In this document: piece after piece, positions 4,554-21,192 of the stretch
Layout of the letters: each line of letters starts with the position of its first letter
Numbering within the stretch: position 1 is the first letter of the stretch
Source: Leeia oryzae DSM 17879
Lineage (GTDB): Bacteria; Pseudomonadota; Gammaproteobacteria; Burkholderiales; Leeiaceae
Direction: 5' to 3'
DNA: 64,000 bases
Assembly: GCF_000376945.1 (NCBI RefSeq)
Contig: NZ_AQXU01000013.1
Span: 1 to 64,000, forward strand
Position numbers and translations under genes: made by a program
Notes under the pieces: generated by a model
Databases searched by the model: none
The model's input: the letters and a program-made list of their open reading frames with translations, nothing else
Told to the model about the DNA's origin: nothing

Positions 4554-5558
4554 TTAATGGAAGGCGCTGATATTTTCCGCCCGGTGTTCTTCCTTGATGC
4601 GGTACATCCGCCTGTCTGCCAGGTCTAGCAGTTGTTCCAGGTTGCTACCGTCAACAGGGAAGAGTGCACCGCCCACACTGGCATGCAAATGAAAGGTTTT
4701 TTCTTCATGGCTGAACGGGGTATTCAGCGTTTCATAAAATCGCTGAATCGTGACATCCAGGTCAGTCTGGTTGCTGATGGATGGCAGCAGCACGCCAAAC
4801 TCATCGCCACCCAGTCGCGCGGCAGTATCTGTCTTGCGGGTAAAGTTGTCTAGCCGCTTTGCAAATTCCATCAGGAATACGTCACCTACCCGATGCCCGA
4901 AAACATCGTTGATCTGTTTCAAGCCATCCATGTCCAGAATCAGAATGCCAAAGCTGCGCGGGGTGCGGACATTTTGATGAACAAGGTTCTGCAAGCGGTC
5001 CATAAACAGGGATCGATTGGCCAAGCCCGTCAGCTCATCATGCGTTGCACGATAAAACAGGGTCTCTTTACCGTATTTGGTGGCAAAGAACATGGTTGCA
5101 CCAATCACTTCGGATAGCTGTTGCAATAACTCGGCATCGTCTTCGGTAAACCGGTTGGTGTCGACTGACATGGCTTTTAGCACGCCAACCACCGCATCGC
5201 CGTGCTTGAGCGGTAGCGCAATCATGGAGCGCAAGCCAATGCGCTGGCAGGCCTTTCTGTCTACACGATGATCGGTTTCCGAATCTTCACAAACCACGGT
5301 TTTTCCGGAACGAATGCAGTAACCGGACAAACTGTTGTTTTTCCTGAGCCGCAGGCCCAACTGAGCTTGCGCGATACCTGAGGTGGCGCGGTAGACCATC
5401 TGGTTACCTTCGACCAATTCGATGACCGCTCCCTCTGCATCAATAATGGTGATCAGCCGATCTACCACCAGTTGCATGACACTCCCCAGATCCAGCCCGA
5501 GCTTGGAAATCTCTGTCTGAAGCTGAATGACAGACATCAACTGTTTTCTGGACAGCAT
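4554..5558 (-). CDS. GAF-GGDEF diguanylate cyclase
   Basis: 334 residues, soluble. Residues 20-160 form a GAF domain with the typical segment GLRSMIALPLKHGDAVVGVL. Residues 170-325 form a GGDEF domain with the HDELTGLANR entry motif and an intact GGDEF at 250-254. An RxxD inhibitory site (RKTD, 241-244) lies five residues before it, as in feedback-inhibited enzymes. The protein should make c-di-GMP from two GTP under control of a small-molecule or redox cue sensed by GAF. It is convergent with the adhesin-export operon, only 13 bases away. c-di-GMP control of adhesin export is a common arrangement, but no direct link is shown here. Confidence 0.95.
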   Translation of the reverse strand: MLSRKQLMSVIQLQTEISKLGLDLGSVMQLVVDRLITIIDAEGAVIELVEGNQMVYRATSGIAQAQLGLRLRKNNSLSGYCIRSGKTVVCEDSETDHRVDRKACQRIGLRSMIALPLKHGDAVVGVLKAMSVDTNRFTEDDAELLQQLSEVIGATMFFATKYGKETLFYRATHDELTGLANRSLFMDRLQNLVHQNVRTPRSFGILILDMDGLKQINDVFGHRVGDVFLMEFAKRLDNFTRKTDTAARLGGDEFGVLLPSISNQTDLDVTIQRFYETLNTPFSHEEKTFHLHASVGGALFPVDGSNLEQLLDLADRRMYRIKEEHRAENISAFH

Positions 5559-5870: not shown

Positions 5871-6683
5871 ATGAAAGCAATCTTTAAAATGGCGCTGACA
5901 CTTGCCATTACGATGATTACCACCCAGGCGTTCGCCGATATTGTCTTTTATGAAAACGAAGGCTTTAGCGGTCGATCTTTTACAACGAACAGGCAAGTCA
6001 GCAATCTATACAACAATGGCTTTAATGACCGAGCCTCTTCGGCCATTGTCTTGAGTGACCGATGGGAGGTCTGTTCTGATTCTGGATTTAACGGGGATTG
6101 CATTTACTTGCGACCAGGGCGGTATTCGTCATTAGACGCGATGGGCATGAATAATAGTGTTTCTTCTGCCCGCATGATCAGCGGGACGGCCCGCTATGAT
6201 GAGCAACGCTATGCCCCGGACCCTGAGCCCGTTTATGACAACCGTCGTCGCAATCGTGAGCGTTTGTATACTGCCTATGTGACGTCAGTCCGTGCGGTGA
6301 TTGCAGATTCCGGACAGCGCTGCTGGATTGAGCGCGATCAGGTCGAGCCAGACCGTAGCCGTAGCAATGTGCCGGGTACCGTGCTTGGTGCCGTGATCGG
6401 GGGCGTACTTGGCCACCAGATCGGTAGCGGAAGTGGTCGGGATGTTGCCACTGTTGGCGGGGCAATTGCCGGTGGGGTGATCGGTTCAAATATCAGTCGT
6501 GACCGAAATAACCAGACCTATTCAAGAGATGTTCAGCATTGCAGTAACGCCAGCTATCAGACATCCCCTGACTATTGGGATGTGACGTATACCTTCCGAG
6601 GCATACAGCATCGAATCCAGATGACATACGCCCCAGGGCGCACCGTCACGGTCAATGCACGCGGTGAACCGCGCGCGTCGTAA
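5871..6683 (+). CDS. Secreted beta/gamma-crystallin-like protein with glycine-zipper 2TM domain
   Basis: 270 residues from the ATG at 5871, chosen over an upstream ATG at 5838 because CAGGAGG lies 7 bases before it and a clean signal peptide follows (cleavage after AFA, residue 22). Residues 23-105 form a beta/gamma-crystallin fold (DIVFYENEGFSGRSF; CSDSGFNGDCIYLRPGRYSSL), a type found in bacterial Ca2+-binding and stress proteins. Residues about 165-205 are a Gly-rich zipper (GAVIGGVLGHQIG ... GGAIAGGVIGSNI), as in the Rickettsia 17-kDa antigen family. It is probably an envelope or outer-membrane-associated protein. It is preceded by operator site A and followed by a clear terminator. Confidence 0.85.
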   Translation: MKAIFKMALTLAITMITTQAFADIVFYENEGFSGRSFTTNRQVSNLYNNGFNDRASSAIVLSDRWEVCSDSGFNGDCIYLRPGRYSSLDAMGMNNSVSSARMISGTARYDEQRYAPDPEPVYDNRRRNRERLYTAYVTSVRAVIADSGQRCWIERDQVEPDRSRSNVPGTVLGAVIGGVLGHQIGSGSGRDVATVGGAIAGGVIGSNISRDRNNQTYSRDVQHCSNASYQTSPDYWDVTYTFRGIQHRIQMTYAPGRTVTVNARGEPRAS

Positions 6684-7372: not shown

Positions 7373-10300
7373 TTGATTGCTGCTACCAGGTTTCTCGACA
7401 CGCTCCGTGATTATCTGCAGCCTTGCATGACGCTGTTGCGTCGCGGCAGATGGTCTCCGGCCAGCCCGGAGGAAGAACCACCGCTAAGATCCGAATTGCT
7501 CAGTGCCGAGCAGATGGCAAGGCATGGCAAGGCGTTGGCGGCGTTGCACCCGTTGGCTAGCGGCTCCGCACCAGACCTGCTGCTACCACGGCTGGCGGCC
7601 AATGAAGCGGCATTGATCAGCGTGTGTGATGTCCTGATGCTCTCTGGCGCCCACAAGCGCCGCAGCACGCCGGCGGGTGGTTGGCTGCTGGATAACTTTT
7701 ACCTGATAGAAGAACAGATACGTACCGCCAAACGGCACTTGCCCAGAGGATACAGCCGGGAGCTGCCCCGCCTGGCGCATGGCCCCTCTGCCGGGCGTCC
7801 GCGCGTGTACGACATTGCACTGGAGATGGTCTCGCATGGGGATGGCCGGGTTGATACCGAGAGCCTGAGCCGGTTCGTGACTGCGTACCAGAGCGTGACC
7901 CCGCTCAAACTGGGCGAATTATGGGCGATTCCGATCATGTTGCGGCTGGCCGTCATCGAGAACCTCCGCCGTGTCGGGATGCAGATTGCCATTGGCGCCA
8001 ATGAACGTCATCTGGCCGATGTGTGGGCCGACAAGATGATCGCAATGGCCGAACAAGACCCCAAAAACCTGATTCTGGTGATTGCTGACATGGCGCACTC
8101 CGGCCCGCCAATGGTCAGCGCTTTTGTGGCAGAACTGGCGCGGCGATTACAGGGGCGCGGGCCGGCACTGGCTTTGCCGTTGAACTGGATTGAGCAGCGC
8201 CTTGCCGAATCCGGCATGACCATCGAGCAGCTGGTGCAGCTGGAAAACCAGCAGCAAGCGGCGGATCAGGTATCCATCAGTAACAGTATTGGCAGTTTGC
8301 GGGTATTGGGTGCCATGGACTGGCGCGAGTTTGTGGAAACCATGAGCCTGGTAGAACAGACCTTGCTGGATGACCCGAGTGATGTCTACCGGCATATGGA
8401 TTTTGCGACACGGGACCGTTACCGTCATGCCACCGAAGCCATTGCCAGACAGGGACAACTGGCTGAAATCGAGGTCGCCCACAAGGCGGTCGCACTGGCG
8501 CGCGCAGGTGCCGGGCACCCGGACAGTGTGGGGGAACGGGCAGGGCATGTCGGCTTTTATCTGCTGGATAAAGGCTTGCCCATGCTGGAAGAGGCGGCTG
8601 GTGTACGCCTGCCGTATACCGAGGTTTGCCGGCGCTGGCTGGGCCGGGTGCCGCTGCTGCTGTATCTGGGCGGGATTACCCTGTTGACCGCGATCATGAC
8701 GGTCACCATGCTGATGCAGATGGCCGCTGCGGGCGTACCCGACGCGCTGTTGTGGCTGACGGGTGGCTGTTTGCTGTTGGCGGGCAGCCAGCTGGCGGTG
8801 GCACTGGTGAACTGGCTGGCCACGCTGCTGGTGATACCCCATGCCTTGTCCAGAATGGACTACACCACCGGTATTCCTGCGCATGCACGTACGCTGGTGG
8901 TGGTGCCGACCATGCTGACCAGCGCGGCCAATGTCGACAAGCTGATCGAGGACCTGGAAGTCCGGTTTCTGGCCAACCGGGATGATTCGCTGCACTTTGG
9001 CCTGTTGACGGATGTACGGGACGCGCCGCAGGAAATTTTGCCGGAAGATGCACAACTGGTGGCGCTGGCCAGCAACCGGATTGATGAACTGAACGAGAAA
9101 TATGGTCATGCCGAAGGGCGAGTCACCGATGATATTTTCTTCCTGTTTCATCGGGCACGGCGCTGGAACCCGCAGGAAAAGATCTGGATGGGCTACGAGC
9201 GCAAGCGGGGCAAACTGGCAGATTTGAATGCCCTGTTGCGTACCGACAAGCAGGGGGGCGGGCGCGAGGCATTTTCCCGCATTGTGGGCAATATCGGTAT
9301 TTTGTCCAGCGTGAAGTATGTCATTACTCTGGATACGGATACGCAATTGCCACGCGATGTGGCGCGGCAATTTATCGCCGCCATGGCCCACCCGCTGAAC
9401 CAGCCCTATTACCACGAGACCAAACAGCGGATTACCGAAGGCTATGGCATTTTGCAGCCCCGGGTTGCGATCAGCCTGCCGGGGACAAATCGCTCCCGCT
9501 ATGCGCGTTTGTATGGGGGGGAGCCAGGCATCGACCCTTATACCCGGGTGGTGTCGGACGTATATCAGGATGTCTTTGGGGAAGGCTCGTTTATCGGCAA
9601 GGGCATTTACGATGTCGATGCGTTTGAACTGGCGCTGGGCGGACGCTTTCCGGAAAACCACGTACTGAGCCATGATCTGCTGGAAGGCTGCCACGCGCGG
9701 GCTGGCTTGTTGAGTGACGTGCAATTGTATGAAGAGTATCCGGCCCGTTATCACGCTGATGTAAGCCGCCGGCATCGCTGGATACGTGGTGACTGGCAAT
9801 TGGCCGGCTGGCTGCTGCGGCGTGTGCCTTGCCAATGGCGGGCTATCGGGTCGCAACGCCGACGTAACCCGTTGTCGGCTTTGTCGCAATGGAAGCTGAT
9901 GGATAACTTGCGCCGCAGTCTGGTGCCCACGGCGCTCACGCTGCTGTTGCTGCTGGGCTGGATGACTTTGCCATCGGCCTGGGGCTGGACCGCGGCTGTC
10001 ATCGGTATCTTGCTGGCGCCCGTCTGGTGCGCTGCGATGCTGGATCTGATCCGCAAGCCGGATGATGTCTTGTTCCGGCAGCATCTGGCGGTGATTGTGC
10101 ATTCGCTGGTGCGGCATTTCATGCAGTTTCTGTTTGAACTTGCCTGTCTGCCGTATGAGGCCTTTTATACGCTGGATGCGATTCTCCGCACCAGCTGGCG
10201 CATGCTGGTTATCCGCAAGCGTTTGCTGGAGTGGACACCGTCCAACGAGGCAGAGCACCATTGGGCCAGACGCAATGGGTTGCTGGCTAGTTATCGGGCA

Positions 10301-13300
10301 ATGTGGTTTGCGCCACTGCTGGCGACCAGTGCCTGTGTGCTGATGACGGTCATTGCACCGCAAGCCTTGATCGTGGCAGCGCCCATTTTGCTGCTCTGGT
10401 TTGCCGCTCCGGGCATTGCCTGGTGGATCAGTCGTCCGCTGGTACGCCGGGACGCCGCATTGACGCTGGCACAGATCCTGTTTTTGCGTGCGCTCACGCG
10501 CCGGACCTGGGCGTTCTTTGATACCTTTGTCGGTCCGGCAGATCACTGGCTACCGCCAGACAATTATCAGGAATACCGGGTTGCGGCCATTGCCCACCGG
10601 ACATCACCCACCAATATCGGACTGGCACTGCTGGCCAACCTGACCGCTTATGACTTTGGTTATCTTCCGTCCGGCAAGCTGATCGAGCGTACCACCCAGA
10701 CCCTGGACACCATGGGCACCATGGAAAGGTTCCGCGGGCATTTTTATAACTGGTATGACACAGAAACGCTCGCGCTGTTGCCCCCGCTTTACATTTCTAC
10801 CGTGGATAGCGGCAATCTGGCCGCGCATCTGCTAACCCTGCGTGCGGGCCTGGCAGTTCTGGACGATGACCGGATCATTCACCCCCGGCTGTTCGATGGC
10901 CTGAGCGATACCCTTAACCTGTTCAACGATACTGCAGCGGGAGTGGCGGCTGCCTCGCTGATCATGTTCCGGCGAGAGTTATCGGTTGCTGCCTTGGCAC
11001 CACCGAAATACTTTGGGGATGCGTATCAATGCCTTACCCGTCTGTCCCGCATGGCTGTGGAATTGGCCGAGCATGTTTTGATGGGTGTGGTCGCCAAGAG
11101 CGATGAAACGCTGGAGTCACAGAACAACCGTCAGGATGCAACAGTATGGGCGACTGCATTGGAACGGCAATGCCAAGAAGCGCTGGATGAGCTGACGTAT
11201 CTGGCCCCCTGGCTATTATTGCCCGCCGCGCCAGACGCTCTGCACACCCTACGCGACATGACCCAGCTTACCGCGATTCCGACCCTGCGAGGTCTGACCA
11301 GTCTGGATGCAGAATGGCGTCCGGAAATCATGCGGTGCTTTGCCTCCGCGGTCACCATGGAAGAACGCGACTGGCTGATTGAACTGCAAACCAGCCTGGC
11401 AACGGGGGTAGCACGGGCCAGGGCACGCCTGGATGCGATGGATCAGCTGGCCGGGCGATGCCTTGAGTTTGCCGAGATGAAATACGACTTTCTCTTTGAC
11501 AAGACCCGGCATCTGCTGAGTATCGGTTACAACGTGGCAGAGCACCGGGCTGACCCCGGTTATTACGATTTGCTGGCGTCCGAGGCGCGGCTGGGCTGCT
11601 TTGTGGGTATTGCCCAAGGGCAACTGCCGCAGGAAAGCTGGTTTGCCCTTGGCCGCTTGCTCACCAGTACGGGGGGAGACCCGGTGTTGTTGTCCTGGAG
11701 CGGCTCCATGTTCGAATACCTGATGCCGCAGCTGATCATGCCCACCTACGACAACACCTTGCTCGACCAGACCTGCAAAGCCATGGTGGCGCGGCAGATC
11801 GAATATGGCAAGCAGCGGGGCGTGCCGTGGGGGATGTCGGAATCGGGTTACAACATGGTTGATGTGAACCTGAACTACCAGTATCGGGCCTTTGGCGTGC
11901 CTGGTCTGGGGCTCAAGCGCGGGTTGGCAGAAGATCTGGTGGTGGCCCCGTATGCGTCGGTACTCGCGCTGGTAGTGATGCCGGAAGCCGCCTGCCGCAA
12001 CCTGCAAAAAATGGCGGCTGCCGGTTTTGTGGGGCAGTTCGGCTTTTTTGAAGCCATTGATTACACACCCGCCAGACAGCGGCGCGGGCAGTCGAGTGTG
12101 GTGGTACGGTCTTTCATGTCGCACCATCAGGGGATGAGCCTGCTCGCACTGTCTTATCTGTTGCTGCACCAGCCGATGCAACGCCGGTTTGAGTCGGACC
12201 GCTTGTTTCAGGCAGTGATGCCGTTGCTGCAAGAGCGCATTCCCAGAACCACCACGCTATTCCCGCACACGGCCCGACGGTTTGATGTCCATACCGCATG
12301 GACTGCCAACCAGACACCTATCCGGATATACAGCACGCCAGATACCCCCATACCCGAAGTTCAGCTGTTGTCCAATGGCCGTTTCCACGTCATGGTCACC
12401 AATGCCGGAGGGGGCTACAGCCGCTGGAAGGATCTGGCCGTGACACGCTGGCGGGAAGATGGTACCCGAGATAACTGGGGGAGCTTCTGTTACATCCGTG
12501 ATCTGGCCAGCGGCACCTACTGGTCGAGCAACTATCAGCCAACGCTGGTGCAGCCAGACCATTTTGAGGCGATTTTTGCCGAAGGCCGGGCCGAGTTCCG
12601 CCGGCGTGACAAGGTGGCTAATGGCGATGTCGAAACCCATACCGAGATGGTTGTCTCGCCGGAAGACGATATCGAGCTTCGCCGGATACACCTGACCAAC
12701 CGGTCGTCCCAACGTCGCGAGATAGACATTACCAGTTATGCCGACGTGGTGCTGGCCCCACCGGCAGCTGATGCCTCGCATCCTGCATTCAGTAACCTGT
12801 TTGTACAAACCGAAATCCTGCCGGTGCAGCACGCCATTCTGTGTACGCGGCGCCCCCGCTCGTCGGACGATCAGGTGCCCTGGATGCTGCATCTGATTGC
12901 GCTGCACGATGCCCATGTCAGCGACGTGTCTTACGAGACAGACCGTCTGCGTTTTATCGGCAGGACCAGAACCCCTGTTGCCCCGCTCGCCATGGAAGAT
13001 GATCACGCCTTATCGGGTACCGACGGTTCGGTACTGGATCCGATTGTGGCCATCCGCTGTCTGGTCGTGCTGGAACCGGACGAGTCGATTGTGGTGGATG
13101 TGGTCACCGGGATGGCAGAAACCCGCGTGGCAGCGATGGCGCTGGTCGAAAAATACCAGGACCGGCATCTGGCAGACCGGGTGTTTGATCTGGCATGGAC
13201 CCATAGCCAGGTCGCGTTGCGGCAGCTCAATGCCACCGAAGCAGACGCCGAATTGTATGCGCGTCTGGCCAGTAGGGTCATCTACGCGGATATGGCGCTG

Positions 13301-16246
13301 CGTGCAGATGCCGCCGTGCTGGTGCAGAACCGGCGTGGCCAGTCGGGTTTGTGGGGGTATGCCATTTCGGGGGATCTGCCAATCGTGCTGTTACAGATTG
13401 CCGATGCTGGCAATATTGATCTGGTCCGCCAGATGGTGCAGGCCCATGCATACTGGCGTTTGCGTGGCCTGGCGGTGGATCTGGTCATCTGGAATGAAAG
13501 CCATGCCGGCTACCGGCAAAACCTGCAGGACCAGATCATGGGGCTGATTGCCTCTGGCATTGATGCCAGCGTGATCGACCGTCCTGGTGGGGTCTTTGTC
13601 CGACCGGCAGAACAGATTGCCACCGAAGACCGCATCCTGATCCAGTCGGTTGCCCGCGTCATCATTACCGATAGCCGTGGCTCGCTGGCCGAGCAACTGG
13701 ACCGGCGGCCCCCAGCGGAGCCGCGTGCGCCCAAACTGGTACCCAGCCGGCAACGCCGCCTGGAGACGTATCCGGACATCTCGTTGCCACAGTGGCCGCT
13801 GCATCTTGCAAACGGACTGGGCGGTTTTAGTGCCGATAGTCGCGAGTATGTCATGACGCTGGCGCCAGATGAGGTCACGCCGGCACCTTGGGTCAATGTG
13901 CTGGCGAACCCGCATTTCGGGACGGTGATATCGGAAAGCGGGATGGCCTATAGCTGGCGTGAAAATGCGCACGAGTACCGGCTGACACCATGGCATAACG
14001 ACCCTGTCAGCGATACGGGGGGCGAAGCCCTGTACCTGCGGGATGAAGAAACCGGCAGTGTCTGGTCGCCTGCGCCGCTGCCAGTGCGGGCCGACAGTCC
14101 CTATGTAGTCCGGCACGGGTTTGGCTACAGTGTGTTCGAGACCTGTCATGACGGCATTTGCTCAGAACTCTGGGTCTATGTCGCCACGGATGCACCGGTC
14201 AAGTTTTCGGTGCTGAAGCTGCGCAATGCCTCTGCCCGTTTACGCAAACTGTCTGCCACCGGGTATGTGGAATGGGTGCTGGGGGATCAGCGGGCCAAAT
14301 CGGCCATGCATGTCATGACGGAGGTCGATGCCCAGAGCGGGGCCCTGTTTGCGCGCAATCCGTACAACACCGAGTTTGCAGACCGGGTCGCGTTTTTTGA
14401 CCTGGATGAACCGGGCCGAACCCTGACCGGTGACCGGCTGGAGTTTTTGGGGCGTAACGGCACACAGCAAAGACCGGCGGCACTTAAGCGTACCCGGTTG
14501 TCTGGCAAGGTAGGGGCCGGGCTGGACCCTTGTGCCGCCTTGCAAACCGGCATCGAGCTGGCCGTGGGACAGACGCGAGAGATCATTTTCCGGCTGGGCG
14601 CCGGGCGTGATGCGGCTGATGCCGCCCGGCTGGTGAAGCGGTTCCGTGGGGCGCTGGCGGCCAAAGATGCACTGGAGGCCGTCCATCTGCAGTGGCAACA
14701 CACGCTTGGCGCTGTACAGATAGAGACGCCGGACCCGGCGATAGACACCTTGGCCAATGGCTGGCTGGTGTACCAGACGCTGGCATGCCGCATCTGGGCA
14801 CGCAGTGGCTACTATCAGTCTGGTGGCGCGTTCGGGTTCCGCGACCAGCTGCAAGACATGATGGCGTTGGTCCATACTCAACCCGCGCTGCTGCGCGAAC
14901 ACCTGTTGCTATGCGCCAGCCGGCAGTTCAAGGAGGGGGATGTTCAACACTGGTGGCATCCGCCCGCAGGCCGCGGCGTACGGACGCATTGTTCGGATGA
15001 TTATCTGTGGCTGGCGTTAGCTGTGTGCCGCTATGTCAGCTGCACCGGGGATACGGGGGTGCTGCATGAACAGGTGCATTTTCTGGAGGGTCGGCCGGTC
15101 AGCCCGGATGATGATTCGTATTACGACCTGCCGCATCAGTCGATTGAAATGGACAGCTTGTATCAGCATGCTGTGCGGGCCATCCGGCACGGCATGCGTT
15201 TTGGCGCACATGGCCTGCCGCTGATGGGGTCTGGCGACTGGAACGACGGCATGAATCTGGTCGGGCTACATGGCAAAGGCGAGAGTGTCTGGCTGGGCTT
15301 TTTCCTGTGTGATGTGCTGCGGCAGTTTGAAGGGCTTGCCCGTGCCCATGGAGACGCCATATTTGCTGACCATTGCCAGCAAGAGCACGGAGAACTGCGT
15401 TTGCGCATCGAGCAGCATGGCTGGGATGGCGAATGGTATCGTCGCGCCTATTTTGATGATGGTACGCCACTGGGTTCTGCCAGTAACAGCGAATGCCGGA
15501 TTGACTCGATTTCCCAGAGCTGGTCGGTACTTTCTGGTGCCGGTGACGTGAACCGGTCACGCATGGCCATGCAGGCGGTCAATACACATCTGGTCCGTGA
15601 TGAAGATGCACTCATCCAGCTGCTGGACCCGCCCTTTGACACGGCGGCACTGAATCCGGGTTATATCCGGGGTTACGTACCCGGGGTACGTGAAAATGGC
15701 GGGCAGTACACTCATGGCGCAATCTGGGCTGCCATGGCATATGCAGCCCTGGGCGAGCGGGAGCGGGCATGGGCTCTGCTGGACATGATCAACCCGGTCA
15801 ACCATAGCCAGACCCGACAGCAGGCTGATACCTACAAAGCAGAGCCCTATGTGGTGGCGGCCGATGTCTACGCGCTCTCGCCCCATACTGGCCGGGGGGG
15901 CTGGAGCTGGTATACCGGCTCGGCCGGCTGGCTGTATCGGCTGATCGTGGAATCCCTGCTCGGGCTCAGGCTGGAAGCCGACCGGCTGTATCTGGTCCCG
16001 TGCCTGCCAGCCGATTGGCCAGCTTGCAAGATTCACTACCGCTATCGTGCCACCACCTACCACATGGTGATTACGCAGCTATCTGGCGACGCAGAGGGCA
16101 ATGTGTCTGGCATGCAGGTGACGGTGGATGGTATCCGCCAGCCAGCCTCCTGGATTTTGCTACAGGATGATCAGGTGGATCATCAGGTGTCTGTGGTGAT
16201 TTGCTTGCCGACCATGGTGCCGGTGGGTACGGGCGGTGAGCGGTGA
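7373..16246 (+). CDS. ndvB: Cyclic beta-1,2-glucan synthase (NdvB/Cgs type)
   Basis: 2957 residues, in the size range of NdvB/Cgs. The TTG start has AAGG about 9 bases upstream; an ATG at 7427 is an alternative. Membrane helices at about 425-500 and 845-1040 flank a GT84 glycosyltransferase domain with the DxD-type motif LDTDT (Asp654, Asp656) and RHRWIRGDW near residue 800. A glycoamylase-like domain follows (about 1150-1600; SWSGSMFEYLMP). Two carbohydrate-binding/GH94 modules end with the phosphorylase-type catalytic domain containing GDWNDGMN (DWNDG at 2622-2626). The enzyme initiates, elongates and cyclises beta-1,2-glucan from UDP-glucose at the inner membrane and releases it to the periplasm for osmoadaptation. 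It lies inside a stress-gene cluster, which fits that role. Confidence 0.95.
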   Translation: MIAATRFLDTLRDYLQPCMTLLRRGRWSPASPEEEPPLRSELLSAEQMARHGKALAALHPLASGSAPDLLLPRLAANEAALISVCDVLMLSGAHKRRSTPAGGWLLDNFYLIEEQIRTAKRHLPRGYSRELPRLAHGPSAGRPRVYDIALEMVSHGDGRVDTESLSRFVTAYQSVTPLKLGELWAIPIMLRLAVIENLRRVGMQIAIGANERHLADVWADKMIAMAEQDPKNLILVIADMAHSGPPMVSAFVAELARRLQGRGPALALPLNWIEQRLAESGMTIEQLVQLENQQQAADQVSISNSIGSLRVLGAMDWREFVETMSLVEQTLLDDPSDVYRHMDFATRDRYRHATEAIARQGQLAEIEVAHKAVALARAGAGHPDSVGERAGHVGFYLLDKGLPMLEEAAGVRLPYTEVCRRWLGRVPLLLYLGGITLLTAIMTVTMLMQMAAAGVPDALLWLTGGCLLLAGSQLAVALVNWLATLLVIPHALSRMDYTTGIPAHARTLVVVPTMLTSAANVDKLIEDLEVRFLANRDDSLHFGLLTDVRDAPQEILPEDAQLVALASNRIDELNEKYGHAEGRVTDDIFFLFHRARRWNPQEKIWMGYERKRGKLADLNALLRTDKQGGGREAFSRIVGNIGILSSVKYVITLDTDTQLPRDVARQFIAAMAHPLNQPYYHETKQRITEGYGILQPRVAISLPGTNRSRYARLYGGEPGIDPYTRVVSDVYQDVFGEGSFIGKGIYDVDAFELALGGRFPENHVLSHDLLEGCHARAGLLSDVQLYEEYPARYHADVSRRHRWIRGDWQLAGWLLRRVPCQWRAIGSQRRRNPLSALSQWKLMDNLRRSLVPTALTLLLLLGWMTLPSAWGWTAAVIGILLAPVWCAAMLDLIRKPDDVLFRQHLAVIVHSLVRHFMQFLFELACLPYEAFYTLDAILRTSWRMLVIRKRLLEWTPSNEAEHHWARRNGLLASYRAMWFAPLLATSACVLMTVIAPQALIVAAPILLLWFAAPGIAWWISRPLVRRDAALTLAQILFLRALTRRTWAFFDTFVGPADHWLPPDNYQEYRVAAIAHRTSPTNIGLALLANLTAYDFGYLPSGKLIERTTQTLDTMGTMERFRGHFYNWYDTETLALLPPLYISTVDSGNLAAHLLTLRAGLAVLDDDRIIHPRLFDGLSDTLNLFNDTAAGVAAASLIMFRRELSVAALAPPKYFGDAYQCLTRLSRMAVELAEHVLMGVVAKSDETLESQNNRQDATVWATALERQCQEALDELTYLAPWLLLPAAPDALHTLRDMTQLTAIPTLRGLTSLDAEWRPEIMRCFASAVTMEERDWLIELQTSLATGVARARARLDAMDQLAGRCLEFAEMKYDFLFDKTRHLLSIGYNVAEHRADPGYYDLLASEARLGCFVGIAQGQLPQESWFALGRLLTSTGGDPVLLSWSGSMFEYLMPQLIMPTYDNTLLDQTCKAMVARQIEYGKQRGVPWGMSESGYNMVDVNLNYQYRAFGVPGLGLKRGLAEDLVVAPYASVLALVVMPEAACRNLQKMAAAGFVGQFGFFEAIDYTPARQRRGQSSVVVRSFMSHHQGMSLLALSYLLLHQPMQRRFESDRLFQAVMPLLQERIPRTTTLFPHTARRFDVHTAWTANQTPIRIYSTPDTPIPEVQLLSNGRFHVMVTNAGGGYSRWKDLAVTRWREDGTRDNWGSFCYIRDLASGTYWSSNYQPTLVQPDHFEAIFAEGRAEFRRRDKVANGDVETHTEMVVSPEDDIELRRIHLTNRSSQRREIDITSYADVVLAPPAADASHPAFSNLFVQTEILPVQHAILCTRRPRSSDDQVPWMLHLIALHDAHVSDVSYETDRLRFIGRTRTPVAPLAMEDDHALSGTDGSVLDPIVAIRCLVVLEPDESIVVDVVTGMAETRVAAMALVEKYQDRHLADRVFDLAWTHSQVALRQLNATEADAELYARLASRVIYADMALRADAAVLVQNRRGQSGLWGYAISGDLPIVLLQIADAGNIDLVRQMVQAHAYWRLRGLAVDLVIWNESHAGYRQNLQDQIMGLIASGIDASVIDRPGGVFVRPAEQIATEDRILIQSVARVIITDSRGSLAEQLDRRPPAEPRAPKLVPSRQRRLETYPDISLPQWPLHLANGLGGFSADSREYVMTLAPDEVTPAPWVNVLANPHFGTVISESGMAYSWRENAHEYRLTPWHNDPVSDTGGEALYLRDEETGSVWSPAPLPVRADSPYVVRHGFGYSVFETCHDGICSELWVYVATDAPVKFSVLKLRNASARLRKLSATGYVEWVLGDQRAKSAMHVMTEVDAQSGALFARNPYNTEFADRVAFFDLDEPGRTLTGDRLEFLGRNGTQQRPAALKRTRLSGKVGAGLDPCAALQTGIELAVGQTREIIFRLGAGRDAADAARLVKRFRGALAAKDALEAVHLQWQHTLGAVQIETPDPAIDTLANGWLVYQTLACRIWARSGYYQSGGAFGFRDQLQDMMALVHTQPALLREHLLLCASRQFKEGDVQHWWHPPAGRGVRTHCSDDYLWLALAVCRYVSCTGDTGVLHEQVHFLEGRPVSPDDDSYYDLPHQSIEMDSLYQHAVRAIRHGMRFGAHGLPLMGSGDWNDGMNLVGLHGKGESVWLGFFLCDVLRQFEGLARAHGDAIFADHCQQEHGELRLRIEQHGWDGEWYRRAYFDDGTPLGSASNSECRIDSISQSWSVLSGAGDVNRSRMAMQAVNTHLVRDEDALIQLLDPPFDTAALNPGYIRGYVPGVRENGGQYTHGAIWAAMAYAALGERERAWALLDMINPVNHSQTRQQADTYKAEPYVVAADVYALSPHTGRGGWSWYTGSAGWLYRLIVESLLGLRLEADRLYLVPCLPADWPACKIHYRYRATTYHMVITQLSGDAEGNVSGMQVTVDGIRQPASWILLQDDQVDHQVSVVICLPTMVPVGTGGER

Positions 16247-16630: not shown

Positions 16631-18697
16631 CTATGCTGCCCGGGCAGAGGCTAGCATCGGGTCACCCAGCACTGTAGGCGGGCGTTGCTCGGCCACCTGT
16701 AACCGTTTGGGTGTGGTTAGCCAGGCCAGTACCGATAGGCCGGCGGTGGCAGAGACGATAGAGGCGCCCAGTATGCCCAGTTTGGCGGCGTTGAGCAGGG
16801 CCGGGCCAAAGGCCAGTTCTGCAATCAGCAACGCCATGGTAAAACCGATACCCGTCAGCAAGCTGCCCGCCGCCATCAGTTGCCACGAGAGTTCAAGTGG
16901 CCGCAGCGCCAGCCCTAGCCGAACCGCCAGATAACTGAATAGCATCACCCCTGCCGGTTTGCCAAATACGAAGCCCGCAAAAATGGCGAGGGTAAGTGCG
17001 CCATCTGCTGCCTGGAAATTGATGGGCAAGCCGGCATTGGCCAGGGCAAACAGCGGGATCACTGCATAGGCAACCCAGGGATGCAGCGCGACCTCCAGCC
17101 GCTCTACCGGCGGTAATGCTTCCCGGGTGGCAATGCTGGCCCGGCGAAGGTCCAGCCGGTCCGGTGTATTGCCCTGCCAATGATTGCCCAGCGGGTAGGC
17201 CATTACCCGAGCTAGAATGGCATGCAGGCGGCTGTCGCTGACCCAGCTTTGCGCGGGCGTCATCAGCCCAAGGATCAGCCCCGCCAGCGTAGGGTGCAGG
17301 CCGGAGACATCCAGCGCCAGCCAGATGGCAACGCCAGCGATGGCATACATCAGCAGGCTGCGTATGCCCAGTCGCGACATGCCAGCCACCATTGCCAGCC
17401 CGACTGCGACCAGACCCAGCGCCTGCCCGTTCAGGGCGGTCCCGTAGCCGATCGCTACCACCAGAATCGCACCGATATCATCGAAGATGGCCAGTGACAA
17501 CAGAAACAGCCGCAAGCTCTGGGGTATGCGCGGCCCGAGAATGGCCAGACAACCGATCAGAAAGGCCGTATCGGTGGCCATGACGGTCCCCCAGCCATGT
17601 GCCCCGGTACCTCTGCCTTCCAGTGCCCAAAAGAGCATGGCAGGCATGATCATCCCTCCCAATGCACCCGCCAGGGAGAGGGCCGCCATGCGTAGATTGC
17701 GCAATTCGCCTTGTACCATCTCCCGCTTCAATTCCAGCGTTCCCATAAAAAAGAACAAGGTCATCAGTCCGTTATTGATCCAGTGTTTCAGGCTATGGGT
17801 CAGTACCAGCGGCCCCAGGCGAACGCCCAATGGCTGGTCCCAGAAGGACAAAAACGGTATTGACCACGGCGAGTTGGAGAGGGCAAGCGCGAGCAGGGCG
17901 CAGAACAGCAAGGCAGCCCCGGCCGTAGCCTCGATGTGCAGGAAGCGGGTGAAACTTTTGGTGAACAGGTCTACCGGTTCTGCAGGGAGGCTGGCGAGTA
18001 CTTTGTTCATGCTGCCCAACGCCTTGTGCTGACGTTTGGGCTGGCTGGAACGGTACTTGGCGGGGCGGTGTTTGCGCAATATCGGCAAGGAGATTCGTTT
18101 TTTCAGCGTGGTTGGCTTGCGGTGGTGGCTGGCGGTGATGGGTAATCCGTGCCGGATTTGCTTGCTACGGTACATTTCCAGGTCCGCCTGCTCGATCAGC
18201 TGGCCAAGTTGCTGATGATCTTTATATACCGCCACGCCGATGCTGGCACCCACAGCCAGAGATTCATCCGCAATCCGGTAAGGTACTGCCAGGCTTTTGC
18301 GCACTTTGGCAATCACCACGGCGATGGAGGTTTTACCCTTGATTTCCGGCAGCATGATGGCAAACTCATCACCCCCTAACCGGGATGCGGTATCGGTGGC
18401 CCGCAGGTTGCTGGTCAGCCGTTTGGCCAGTTGTTGCAATAACTGGTCACCCGCGTCATGGCCCAGGCGGTCATTGATCGCCTTGAAATCATCCAGATCA
18501 ATCATCAATACCGCGAGCTGGCGCTGTTGCCGTTCAGCAATGGCCATGGCTTGTCCGAGACGGTCGTGAAACAGTCGTCGGTTAGGCAAGCCGGTCAGCA
18601 CATCGTGATTGGCGCTATAGCGTGCCAGGCGCACCATGCCGGCCAGTTTGACCAGGCGTTTGCGTAGCCGCAGATTGGATTCTTTCAAGGTTTCCAT
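16631..18697 (-). CDS. nhaA: GGDEF diguanylate cyclase fused to NhaA Na+/H+ antiporter
   Basis: 688 residues in one open frame. Residues 1-182 form a GGDEF domain: HDVLTGLPNRR at 31-41, intact GGDEF at 108-112 and an RxxD inhibitory site RATD at 99-102. A basic linker follows (183-229, many Lys, Arg and His). Residues 230-688 are a complete NhaA with Asp376 (ATDTAF), Asp406-Asp407 (AIFDDIGA) and Lys580 (GKP), matching E. coli Asp133, Asp163/164 and Lys300; the 30-residue spacing is the same. NhaA has a cytoplasmic N-terminus, so the cyclase would sit correctly in the cytosol. An internal ATG at codon 230 (base 18010) could give free NhaA, but it has only a weak, distant AAGG. NhaA exports Na+ in exchange for H+. 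Confidence 0.88.
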   Translation of the reverse strand: METLKESNLRLRKRLVKLAGMVRLARYSANHDVLTGLPNRRLFHDRLGQAMAIAERQQRQLAVLMIDLDDFKAINDRLGHDAGDQLLQQLAKRLTSNLRATDTASRLGGDEFAIMLPEIKGKTSIAVVIAKVRKSLAVPYRIADESLAVGASIGVAVYKDHQQLGQLIEQADLEMYRSKQIRHGLPITASHHRKPTTLKKRISLPILRKHRPAKYRSSQPKRQHKALGSMNKVLASLPAEPVDLFTKSFTRFLHIEATAGAALLFCALLALALSNSPWSIPFLSFWDQPLGVRLGPLVLTHSLKHWINNGLMTLFFFMGTLELKREMVQGELRNLRMAALSLAGALGGMIMPAMLFWALEGRGTGAHGWGTVMATDTAFLIGCLAILGPRIPQSLRLFLLSLAIFDDIGAILVVAIGYGTALNGQALGLVAVGLAMVAGMSRLGIRSLLMYAIAGVAIWLALDVSGLHPTLAGLILGLMTPAQSWVSDSRLHAILARVMAYPLGNHWQGNTPDRLDLRRASIATREALPPVERLEVALHPWVAYAVIPLFALANAGLPINFQAADGALTLAIFAGFVFGKPAGVMLFSYLAVRLGLALRPLELSWQLMAAGSLLTGIGFTMALLIAELAFGPALLNAAKLGILGASIVSATAGLSVLAWLTTPKRLQVAEQRPPTVLGDPMLASARAA

Positions 18698-18809: not shown

Positions 18810-20234
18810 TCACAGCCAGTACTCCCAGATTCGGGCAAAGGTTTCTTTGAGATGCTGACCCAACGAGCGATGCAACCATTTTTCCAGGGTAATTTCATCG
18901 GATTCCGCCAGGTCTTTGTCAAACATGGCTTGTAGCTGATTGCCAAATTCGCTCCCCAGCACCACCGCGTTCAGTTCATGGTTGTGCAGAAAGCTGCGCC
19001 AGTCCAGATTGGTGGAGCCGACCGTCGCCCAGACACCATCAATGAGCGCCGTCTTGGCGTGCAATATCACCCCGCGGCGTTCATAGATTTTGATGCCGGC
19101 GCGTAATAACTGCTCGTAGTAACCATGGCCTGCGTTGAGTACCAGCCAGGAGTCCGTCTGGCTCGGGAGAATCAGTTTGACATCGACCCCACGCCCGGCT
19201 GCCGCAATGAGCGCAGCTAGCAGTTGCGGGTCCGGGGCAAAATAGGCATTGGTCAGCCGTATGCTGGTTTCTGCACTGCCGATGGCAGAGAGCAGCGTGG
19301 CATAGATCAGGCTGTAAGGCTCATCTGGCGAGCTACCAATGGCACGGACAACCTGTTTGCCGGCGTGTACGGGGGGCGGGTAATAGTTTTTGGCTGCTAA
19401 CGGACTGCCTTTCTGGTTCTCCCAGGTGGCAAGAAACAGTTTCTGCAACTCGGCCACCACCGGCCCTTCTAACTGCAGGTCAGTATCGCGCCAGGTCGGG
19501 GTACTGCCGTCTGACTGGGGGTGGGATGCACGGGTGAGCGAGCTGCCGGAGTAGACCCCGCTGATATTGATGCCACCCAAAAATGCAATCCGGCCATCGA
19601 CAATCAATAGCTTCCGGTGATCGCGCTGGTTGAGTGTCCATGTCTTGCGGCTGACCAGCGGGTTGAGGGGGTTGAATTCGAGTACCTGGATGCCACTGTC
19701 AGCCAGGCGCTGAAAGAACGCCGCCGGGGTGCTCAGGGTGCCGAGGCTGTCGTGAATCAGGTTCACCTGTACGCCTTGGCGCTGCTTGTCGATCAGGGCT
19801 TGTGCAAAGCGCTGGCCAACCGTGTCGTCATCCATGACGTAGGTTTCGATGTTGATATGGTCCTGCGCCGACTGGATGGCCGCGAACATGGCCTCATACG
19901 TGGCTGGCCCGTTTTGCAGCAACTGTACCTGGTTGTCCGTGGTCAGCGGACTGCCGACAATGGCTTCTTCCAGCGCAAGATGGCGTTCAAAAATATTGGT
20001 TGTCTGCCCACTGCTGTTGAGATGGTCAAGAATGGCTTTGCTTTGGGTGGCCGACAGCGGCCCATGGAGACCATCGAGCTGGACTGGCCGGTCTGAATGC
20101 AGTGCCAGATCCGGCACGATGGTGGGCAGGCTGCTACAGCCTGTAAATAGGCCAAACAGGCACAGCAAACCGAGCCAGCGAACGATGGCGACTGCCTGAT
20201 ATCGCACAGATCGGAACGAAGGGACGGATGCCAT
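18810..20234 (-). CDS. Phospholipase D-family lipoprotein (cardiolipin synthase-like)
   Basis: 474 residues. The N-terminus is a lipoprotein signal with lipobox LFTGC (Cys33). Two HKD motifs are complete: His206-Lys208-Asp213 (HRKLLIVDG) and His392-Lys394-Asp399 (HAKTALIDG), each followed by the usual Gly/Ser and Asn (GGINIS; GSTNLDWRS). The pair of HKD sites is that of bacterial cardiolipin synthases, which join two phosphatidylglycerols or use PE. ClsA-type membrane helices are absent; the ClsC-like layout is closer, and the lipid anchor suggests periplasmic action. The GGDEF-NhaA gene follows after 113 bases on the same strand. Envelope lipid remodelling under stress is the likely job. Confidence 0.88.
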   Translation of the reverse strand: MASVPSFRSVRYQAVAIVRWLGLLCLFGLFTGCSSLPTIVPDLALHSDRPVQLDGLHGPLSATQSKAILDHLNSSGQTTNIFERHLALEEAIVGSPLTTDNQVQLLQNGPATYEAMFAAIQSAQDHINIETYVMDDDTVGQRFAQALIDKQRQGVQVNLIHDSLGTLSTPAAFFQRLADSGIQVLEFNPLNPLVSRKTWTLNQRDHRKLLIVDGRIAFLGGINISGVYSGSSLTRASHPQSDGSTPTWRDTDLQLEGPVVAELQKLFLATWENQKGSPLAAKNYYPPPVHAGKQVVRAIGSSPDEPYSLIYATLLSAIGSAETSIRLTNAYFAPDPQLLAALIAAAGRGVDVKLILPSQTDSWLVLNAGHGYYEQLLRAGIKIYERRGVILHAKTALIDGVWATVGSTNLDWRSFLHNHELNAVVLGSEFGNQLQAMFDKDLAESDEITLEKWLHRSLGQHLKETFARIWEYWL

Positions 20235-20502: not shown

Positions 20503-20844
20503 TCAGTAGGCGGATTCAGCAGGTGGCTGTACCACAATGACAGTGGTGTCTGTGCCGGTTTTACCGGTAGCCCCACTGGCCCCCGTTTCACCGGTACGGC
20601 CTTTGTCACCCGTTGTACCTTGTGCCCCTGTATAACCCTTGTCGCCCGGTACGCCTTGCGCTCCGGTATAACCATCAGCACCCTGAGAACCGGTCTCTCC
20701 TGCTGGGCCGGCAGGCCCGGGTACCGGTACGGCCACCACGGTGGGGTCAGGTGCGGCAGCAGGCACTGCGATGACCGTAGGCCTGTCGCAAGCACTCAGT
20801 CCTAATACGGTGATCAATGCCAATAGTGTTATCGAATGTTTCAT
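20503..20844 (-). CDS. Collagen-like (Gly-X-Y) lipoprotein
   Basis: 113 residues. Signal peptide with lipobox LSAC (Cys19), a short Pro/Val/Ala spacer, then 19 uninterrupted Gly-X-Y triplets (about residues 43-99: [12 protein letters not shown] ... GATGKTGTD) and a C-terminal [13 protein letters not shown] tail. The triplets are rich in Thr, Asp and Lys rather than hydroxyproline-type positions, as in bacterial collagen-like proteins, which can form triple helices. It is probably anchored in the outer membrane. RBS AAGGACACCCC precedes the ATG. The gene is followed on the same strand by DUF3309. Function unknown. Confidence 0.85.
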
Positions 20845-21192
20845 GGGGTGTCCTTTAAAAGCGCGTAAAGCCAGGTTGGCGTAACCGTCTTCTCTGTGTG
20901 CGCTCCCGTGTCTGAAAGTCATGGGGCGCACTTTGTATAAGGACAGCGTAGGCGTATGCCATGCACAGTTCGGTGCGCCAGCGAACACATTGGGTAAATT
21001 AATGCGGGAGACGGTAGCTGAAGGGTGCGCCAGTGGCCGATCAACGCCATCCATGACGGCGCTGACGCAGGCGTATCGGGCTTGGTTCGTTAGCGAACAG
21101 ACGGCTATGCGCTTTGGTTGCATTGTCATAGCTGTGACAACCTCCCCGATACGCCACATGTTGCGGCAAGCGGGGCTCAGTCAGAGGCTTGT
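20845..21192. other. Intergenic region, no gene seen
   Basis: 348 bases. It should contain the promoter of the minus-strand collagen-like lipoprotein. Only short inverted repeats are visible (GTTCG-TTAG-CGAAC at 21085-21098). The open frames across it have poor codon quality and no ribosome site. Confidence 0.4.

Follow-up and report, generated by a model that had tools for sequence, protein, structure and literature searches.

The window, the 64,000-nucleotide stretch of Leeia oryzae DNA that we analysed, contains a single uninterrupted frame of 688 codons on the minus strand (16631-18697) that places a GGDEF domain and an NhaA Na+/H+ antiporter on the same chain. The in-frame fusion described in the initial annotation was confirmed as a genuine feature of the sequence by translation of the ORF and by Pfam searches, which recovered both domains complete. 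The fusion is known from a single assembly, that of one genome. On balance, and with moderate confidence, we regard it as a genuine fusion, restricted to one lineage, of a cyclase-NhaA operon pair that was coupled in translation. The features of the frame and of its upstream neighbour are listed in Table 1.

Table 1. Positions in the window of the fused frame, its parts and the adjacent gene.
Feature	Coordinates	Strand	Basis or remark
Fused ORF, cyclase + linker + NhaA (688 aa)	16631..18697	-	No internal stop; Pfam
N-terminal segment, aa 1-28	18614..18697	-	Kept in orthologous free cyclases (alignment)
GGDEF domain, aa 29-181	18155..18613	-	Pfam PF00990
RATD inhibitory (I) site, aa 99-102	18392..18403	-	Sequence and alignment
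GGDEF active-site signature, aa 108-112	18362..18376	-	Sequence and alignment
Basic linker, aa 182-229	18011..18154	-	Variable tail of free cyclases plus NhaA junction
Internal ATG (Met230), probable original NhaA start	18008..18010	-	Aligned with NhaA start region of G099
TGA in neighbouring frame, overlapping internal ATG (ATGA)	18007..18009	-	Frame stops
NhaA Na+/H+ antiporter domain, aa 251-657	16727..17947	-	Pfam PF06965, TIGR00773, PDB NhaA matches
PLD-family protein (cardiolipin-synthase-like)	18810..20234	-	Pfam PLDc_2/PLDc

Domains and linker of the fused frame

The cyclase half matched PF00990 with 169 bits over profile positions 1-157 of 161. The GGDEF signature and the RATD site, both reported from the sequence earlier, were present, and R99, D102 and G108-G109-D110-E111-F112 were invariant among three cyclase orthologues. 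With its GGDEF domain complete and its GG(D/E)EF signature intact, this half looks complete by domain and motifs and is a predicted diguanylate cyclase. A recognisable sensor domain was absent from the N-terminal segment (residues 1-28), which gave no Pfam match.

The NhaA half matched PF06965 with 404 bits (profile positions 2-374 of 374) and scored 312.8 bits with TIGR00773 (cut-off 254; positions 1-374 of 374). The key residues D376, D406, D407 and K580, named in the initial annotation, are all there; together with H468 they were invariant when the NhaA half was aligned with 24 homologues. These four residues align with D133, D163, D164 and K300 of E. coli NhaA, respectively, and the ion-site motifs match those of E. 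coli NhaA structures. Judged by the TIGR00773 model and by the residues for ion binding and transport, the NhaA half looks complete and is a predicted Na+/H+ antiporter. It resembles known NhaA proteins (TIGR00773 and PF06965; E. coli NhaA, PDB 4au5/1zcd) in its full-length domain and key residues, whereas the fused protein differs from them in bearing a 229-residue N-terminal extension of cyclase plus linker. In a structure model of the full chain obtained with AlphaFold, the NhaA half was modelled with pLDDT values mostly between 75 and 90. The cyclase half was left unfolded because the input alignment contained no cyclase rows, and the model is thus uninformative for the linker.

The linker proposed earlier is present and basic (residues 182-229); it was found in one genome only, so that its conservation cannot be claimed. 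Among orthologues, the cyclase tail from residue 182 onwards varies in length and sequence and is poorly conserved. Codon statistics strongly preferred frame 0 in both domains and weakly preferred it in the linker, where the scores for codons 181-229 were +3.3, -15.3 and -0.5 for frames 0, 1 and 2, respectively.

Homologues in relatives and the search for other fused chains

The closest relative with both halves is G099, a genome of the same order, in which close homologues of the cyclase (67% identity) and of NhaA (76%) lie side by side as two adjacent genes. At this locus (L053), a cyclase of 227 amino acids ends at a TGA stop (6497-6495), and the NhaA ATG at 6481 follows 13 nt past that stop in another frame. 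In the ~60 nt that precede the NhaA ATG, the window and G099 are colinear (about 60% identical), and this DNA is read in the NhaA frame in the window and in a different frame from NhaA in G099. Where G099 has its cyclase stop (GCA TGA), the window has GCA CAA. In alignments, a gap with a net change of frame falls further upstream, in the cyclase tail; its exact position shifts with gap costs. Codon preference in the G099 tail gave no clear signal as to whether the fused or the separate state is ancestral. Comparison with G099 yielded a dN of 0.17 and dS of 1.21 for the cyclase half (dN/dS about 0.14) and a dN of 0.16 and dS of 1.23 for the NhaA half (dN/dS about 0.13). Given that dN is so far below the dS of ~1.2 in each case, both halves are under purifying selection and have been kept functional since the split from the G099 lineage.

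The orthologous cyclase is also free-standing in G378, which belongs to the same genus as G099, and in G150 and G248, which represent another family; NhaA is not adjacent in any of these three genomes. The four free cyclases, of about 200-235 amino acids, share 56-75% identity with the cyclase half and resemble it in an orthologous N-terminal segment and GGDEF domain, but each has its own stop, and NhaA is a neighbour, as a separate gene, in G099 only. The initial annotation had named separate genes in close relatives as grounds against the fusion. This objection holds in part: such genes were found for the G099 pair, and the other three orthologues are cyclases without NhaA. The fused gene was absent from the same-genus genomes G001 and G002. 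In these two, the best matches to NhaA (40-42%) are similar to the second NhaA of Leeia oryzae, which is encoded on contig C25 and is 40% identical to the fused NhaA half. Beyond G099, the nearest relatives of that half are mainly of alphaproteobacterial type (63-70% identity).

No second chain covering both halves was found in genomes of the family, order, class and phylum (1,624 genome scans, repeats included). Likewise, a GGDEF-NhaA fusion was found neither among 80 named NhaA loci, nor in 72,556 plasmids (80% query coverage, E <= 1e-20), nor in 50,697 phage records. Genome searches sample species, and the absence of a second fusion in them does not prove uniqueness. A conserved GGDEF-NhaA fusion family was rejected, as these searches gave no second member with both domains on one chain. 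Since G099 has separate genes, the remaining cyclase orthologues lack an NhaA neighbour and the searches returned no fused homologue, the protein is not a conserved enzyme type. A general link between GGDEF proteins and NhaA was likewise rejected, with an adjacent cyclase only in G099 among about 100 NhaA loci. In two gammaproteobacterial loci (L126 and L127), which encode a nearly identical NhaA of 443 amino acids, the GGDEF genes found about 0.7 kb upstream of it on that strand are different ones; by a rough estimate, this does not look like an excess over GGDEF gene density. An open frame of 928 amino acids around NhaA in G002 was rejected as a fusion in favour of a normal NhaA gene of 446 amino acids.

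The initial annotation knew of no described enzyme of this layout. That view held for GGDEF-NhaA chains, of which no other was found, and a literature search returned no paper on such a protein. The joining of a GGDEF domain to a transporter does have a precedent in the ammonium transporter-GGDEF proteins (PDB 8qj3, 8qpf). In those proteins, however, the transporter belongs to another family and the GGDEF domain is C-terminal (chain residues about 460-630); given that the transporter here is NhaA and the GGDEF domain N-terminal, membership in that group was rejected. A second partial likeness is a DsbA/thioredoxin-like-NhaA protein (L052:853-2781), in which an N-terminal soluble domain is also fused to NhaA, but the partner there, read from the sequence as DsbA-like, is unrelated to GGDEF.

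Proposed origin of the fusion and its alternatives

On this reading, the ancestor would have carried an operon in which a small diguanylate cyclase, encoded on its own, and an accessory NhaA stood head-to-tail and were coupled in translation. An indel with a net change of frame in the cyclase tail, which is expendable, would then have brought cyclase and NhaA into one frame with no stop between them. The Shine-Dalgarno match before Met230 is weak (-3.5 kcal/mol, a value attained by 28% of random ATGs), and there is practically none at the G099 NhaA start (-1.5 kcal/mol). These weak matches suggest that NhaA translation already depended on cyclase translation before the fusion, and since the two would have been coupled in this way, fusion would have been a small step.

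It is also quite possible, with chances that we put a little below even, that the fused DNA is real but functions as two proteins or two independent domains, either because most of the NhaA comes from the internal ATG or because the fused chain behaves as a normal antiporter and a normal cyclase with no cross-talk between them. Met230 lies at the probable original NhaA start and, because this ATG is retained, free NhaA could also be made. The lack of conservation of the linker, which falls within the variable tail, and of any identifiable sensor residues or conserved contact surface also agrees with independent halves. On the other hand, the weak Shine-Dalgarno match makes strong independent initiation at Met230 unlikely, and membrane tethering by itself would change the location of the cyclase.

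The main rival to a genuine fusion is a sequencing or assembly artefact, in which two overlapping genes would have been joined by an error of one base (mod 3) within the final ~30 codons of the cyclase (18010-18103). Misplaced ORF boundaries caused by single-base errors are known from bacterial genomes (PMC2330054). From codon 198, the neighbouring frame (frame 1) contains no stop until the TGA at codon 229; with the tail shifted into this frame, that TGA would terminate the cyclase. Because this TGA overlaps the NhaA ATG, a one-base (mod 3) difference, falling within a ~94-nt stretch, separates the fused gene from two overlapping genes, and the resulting ATGA is a common operon junction. The separate cyclase and NhaA of relatives point the same way, as does the occurrence of the fusion in a single assembly. 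Against an artefact, the assembly is 99.97% complete in 25 contigs, every large gene and every Pfam domain that was tested in the window is intact, and the stop position of G099 is substituted (TGA to CAA). In addition, codon preference, summed over codons 201-225, is about 8 nats better for frame 0 than for frame 1. This modest signal would confine any sequencing error to the last few codons. We consider an artefact unlikely.

For a genuine fusion of the operon pair, ribosomes would produce a single chain of ~75 kDa. Because the N-terminus of NhaA is cytoplasmic, the GGDEF domain would lie in the cytoplasm, and the topology put forward in the initial annotation is compatible with an N-terminal GGDEF domain. 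A basic tether of ~47 residues would hold this domain at the NhaA N-terminus, while the NhaA half would transport as usual. GGDEF cyclases act as dimers. E. coli NhaA is also a dimer, with cardiolipin at the dimer interface in cryo-EM structures (PMC13408996), and an NhaA dimer would most likely draw two GGDEF domains together and so permit cyclase activity. Synthesis of c-di-GMP would then be localised to the membrane and restrained by the RxxD site.

The link between ion homeostasis and c-di-GMP put forward in the initial annotation is hypothetical, as is every form of coupling of transport to c-di-GMP. At low pH, the cytoplasmic N-terminal tail of E. coli NhaA blocks the cytoplasmic funnel, which it leaves at alkaline pH (PMC13408996), and the conserved Arg-Phe of this plug aligns with R251-F252 of the fused chain. 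Control of the cyclase by pH or Na+ through the NhaA N-terminal tail is thus possible in principle. It is improbable, in our estimate, that the protein is a true sensor in which the NhaA half serves as a pH- or Na+-responsive input for the cyclase, by analogy with the ammonium transporter-GGDEF proteins. The solved structures of those proteins and the alignment of the plug residues speak for such a role; the single occurrence, the unconserved linker, the N-terminal rather than C-terminal position of GGDEF and the existence of free cyclase orthologues without NhaA speak against it. The probabilities attached to these readings overlap, because a real but uncoupled fusion and a sensor are both versions of a real fusion. 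A further proposal, that of a new kind of signalling transporter whose NhaA dimer and pH-gated N-terminal tail switch the cyclase on and off so that Na+ or pH directly sets the c-di-GMP level, is likewise improbable.

If translated, the protein would be the sole cyclase-NhaA chain found, one indel away from a two-gene operon, and would offer a natural test of how operon neighbours turn into multidomain proteins. It would also allow a test of whether an antiporter-tethered cyclase couples ion homeostasis to c-di-GMP. If the frame were an assembly error, the locus would be an ordinary overlapping gene pair, and all that would remain is a cyclase and an NhaA that share an operon in two genomes from different families.

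Genomic neighbourhood

The PLD-family gene lies upstream of the fused ORF on the same strand and ends 112 nt before it. No consensus promoter or terminator-like site was found on the minus strand between the two, and the PLD-family gene is a possible operon partner. That its product might supply cardiolipin to the fused NhaA is only a thought. Farther upstream, an ORF of 218 amino acids (20503-21159, minus strand) encodes a lipoprotein-like segment followed by a collagen-like Gly-X-Y repeat. On the plus strand, an ORF of 2957 amino acids (7373-16246) with GH94 and glucoamylase-like domains resembles cyclic beta-glucan synthase; in G099, G378 and G248, a homologue of it lies beside the orthologous cyclase gene.

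A second, ordinary cyclase of GAF-GGDEF type is encoded nearby (4554-5558, minus strand). The 3.8-Mb genome of Leeia oryzae is rich in c-di-GMP signalling proteins: 64 matches to the fused protein were obtained, two of them through NhaA and about 62 through GGDEF. Fewer matches were obtained in the same search for G001 (29) and G002 (44).
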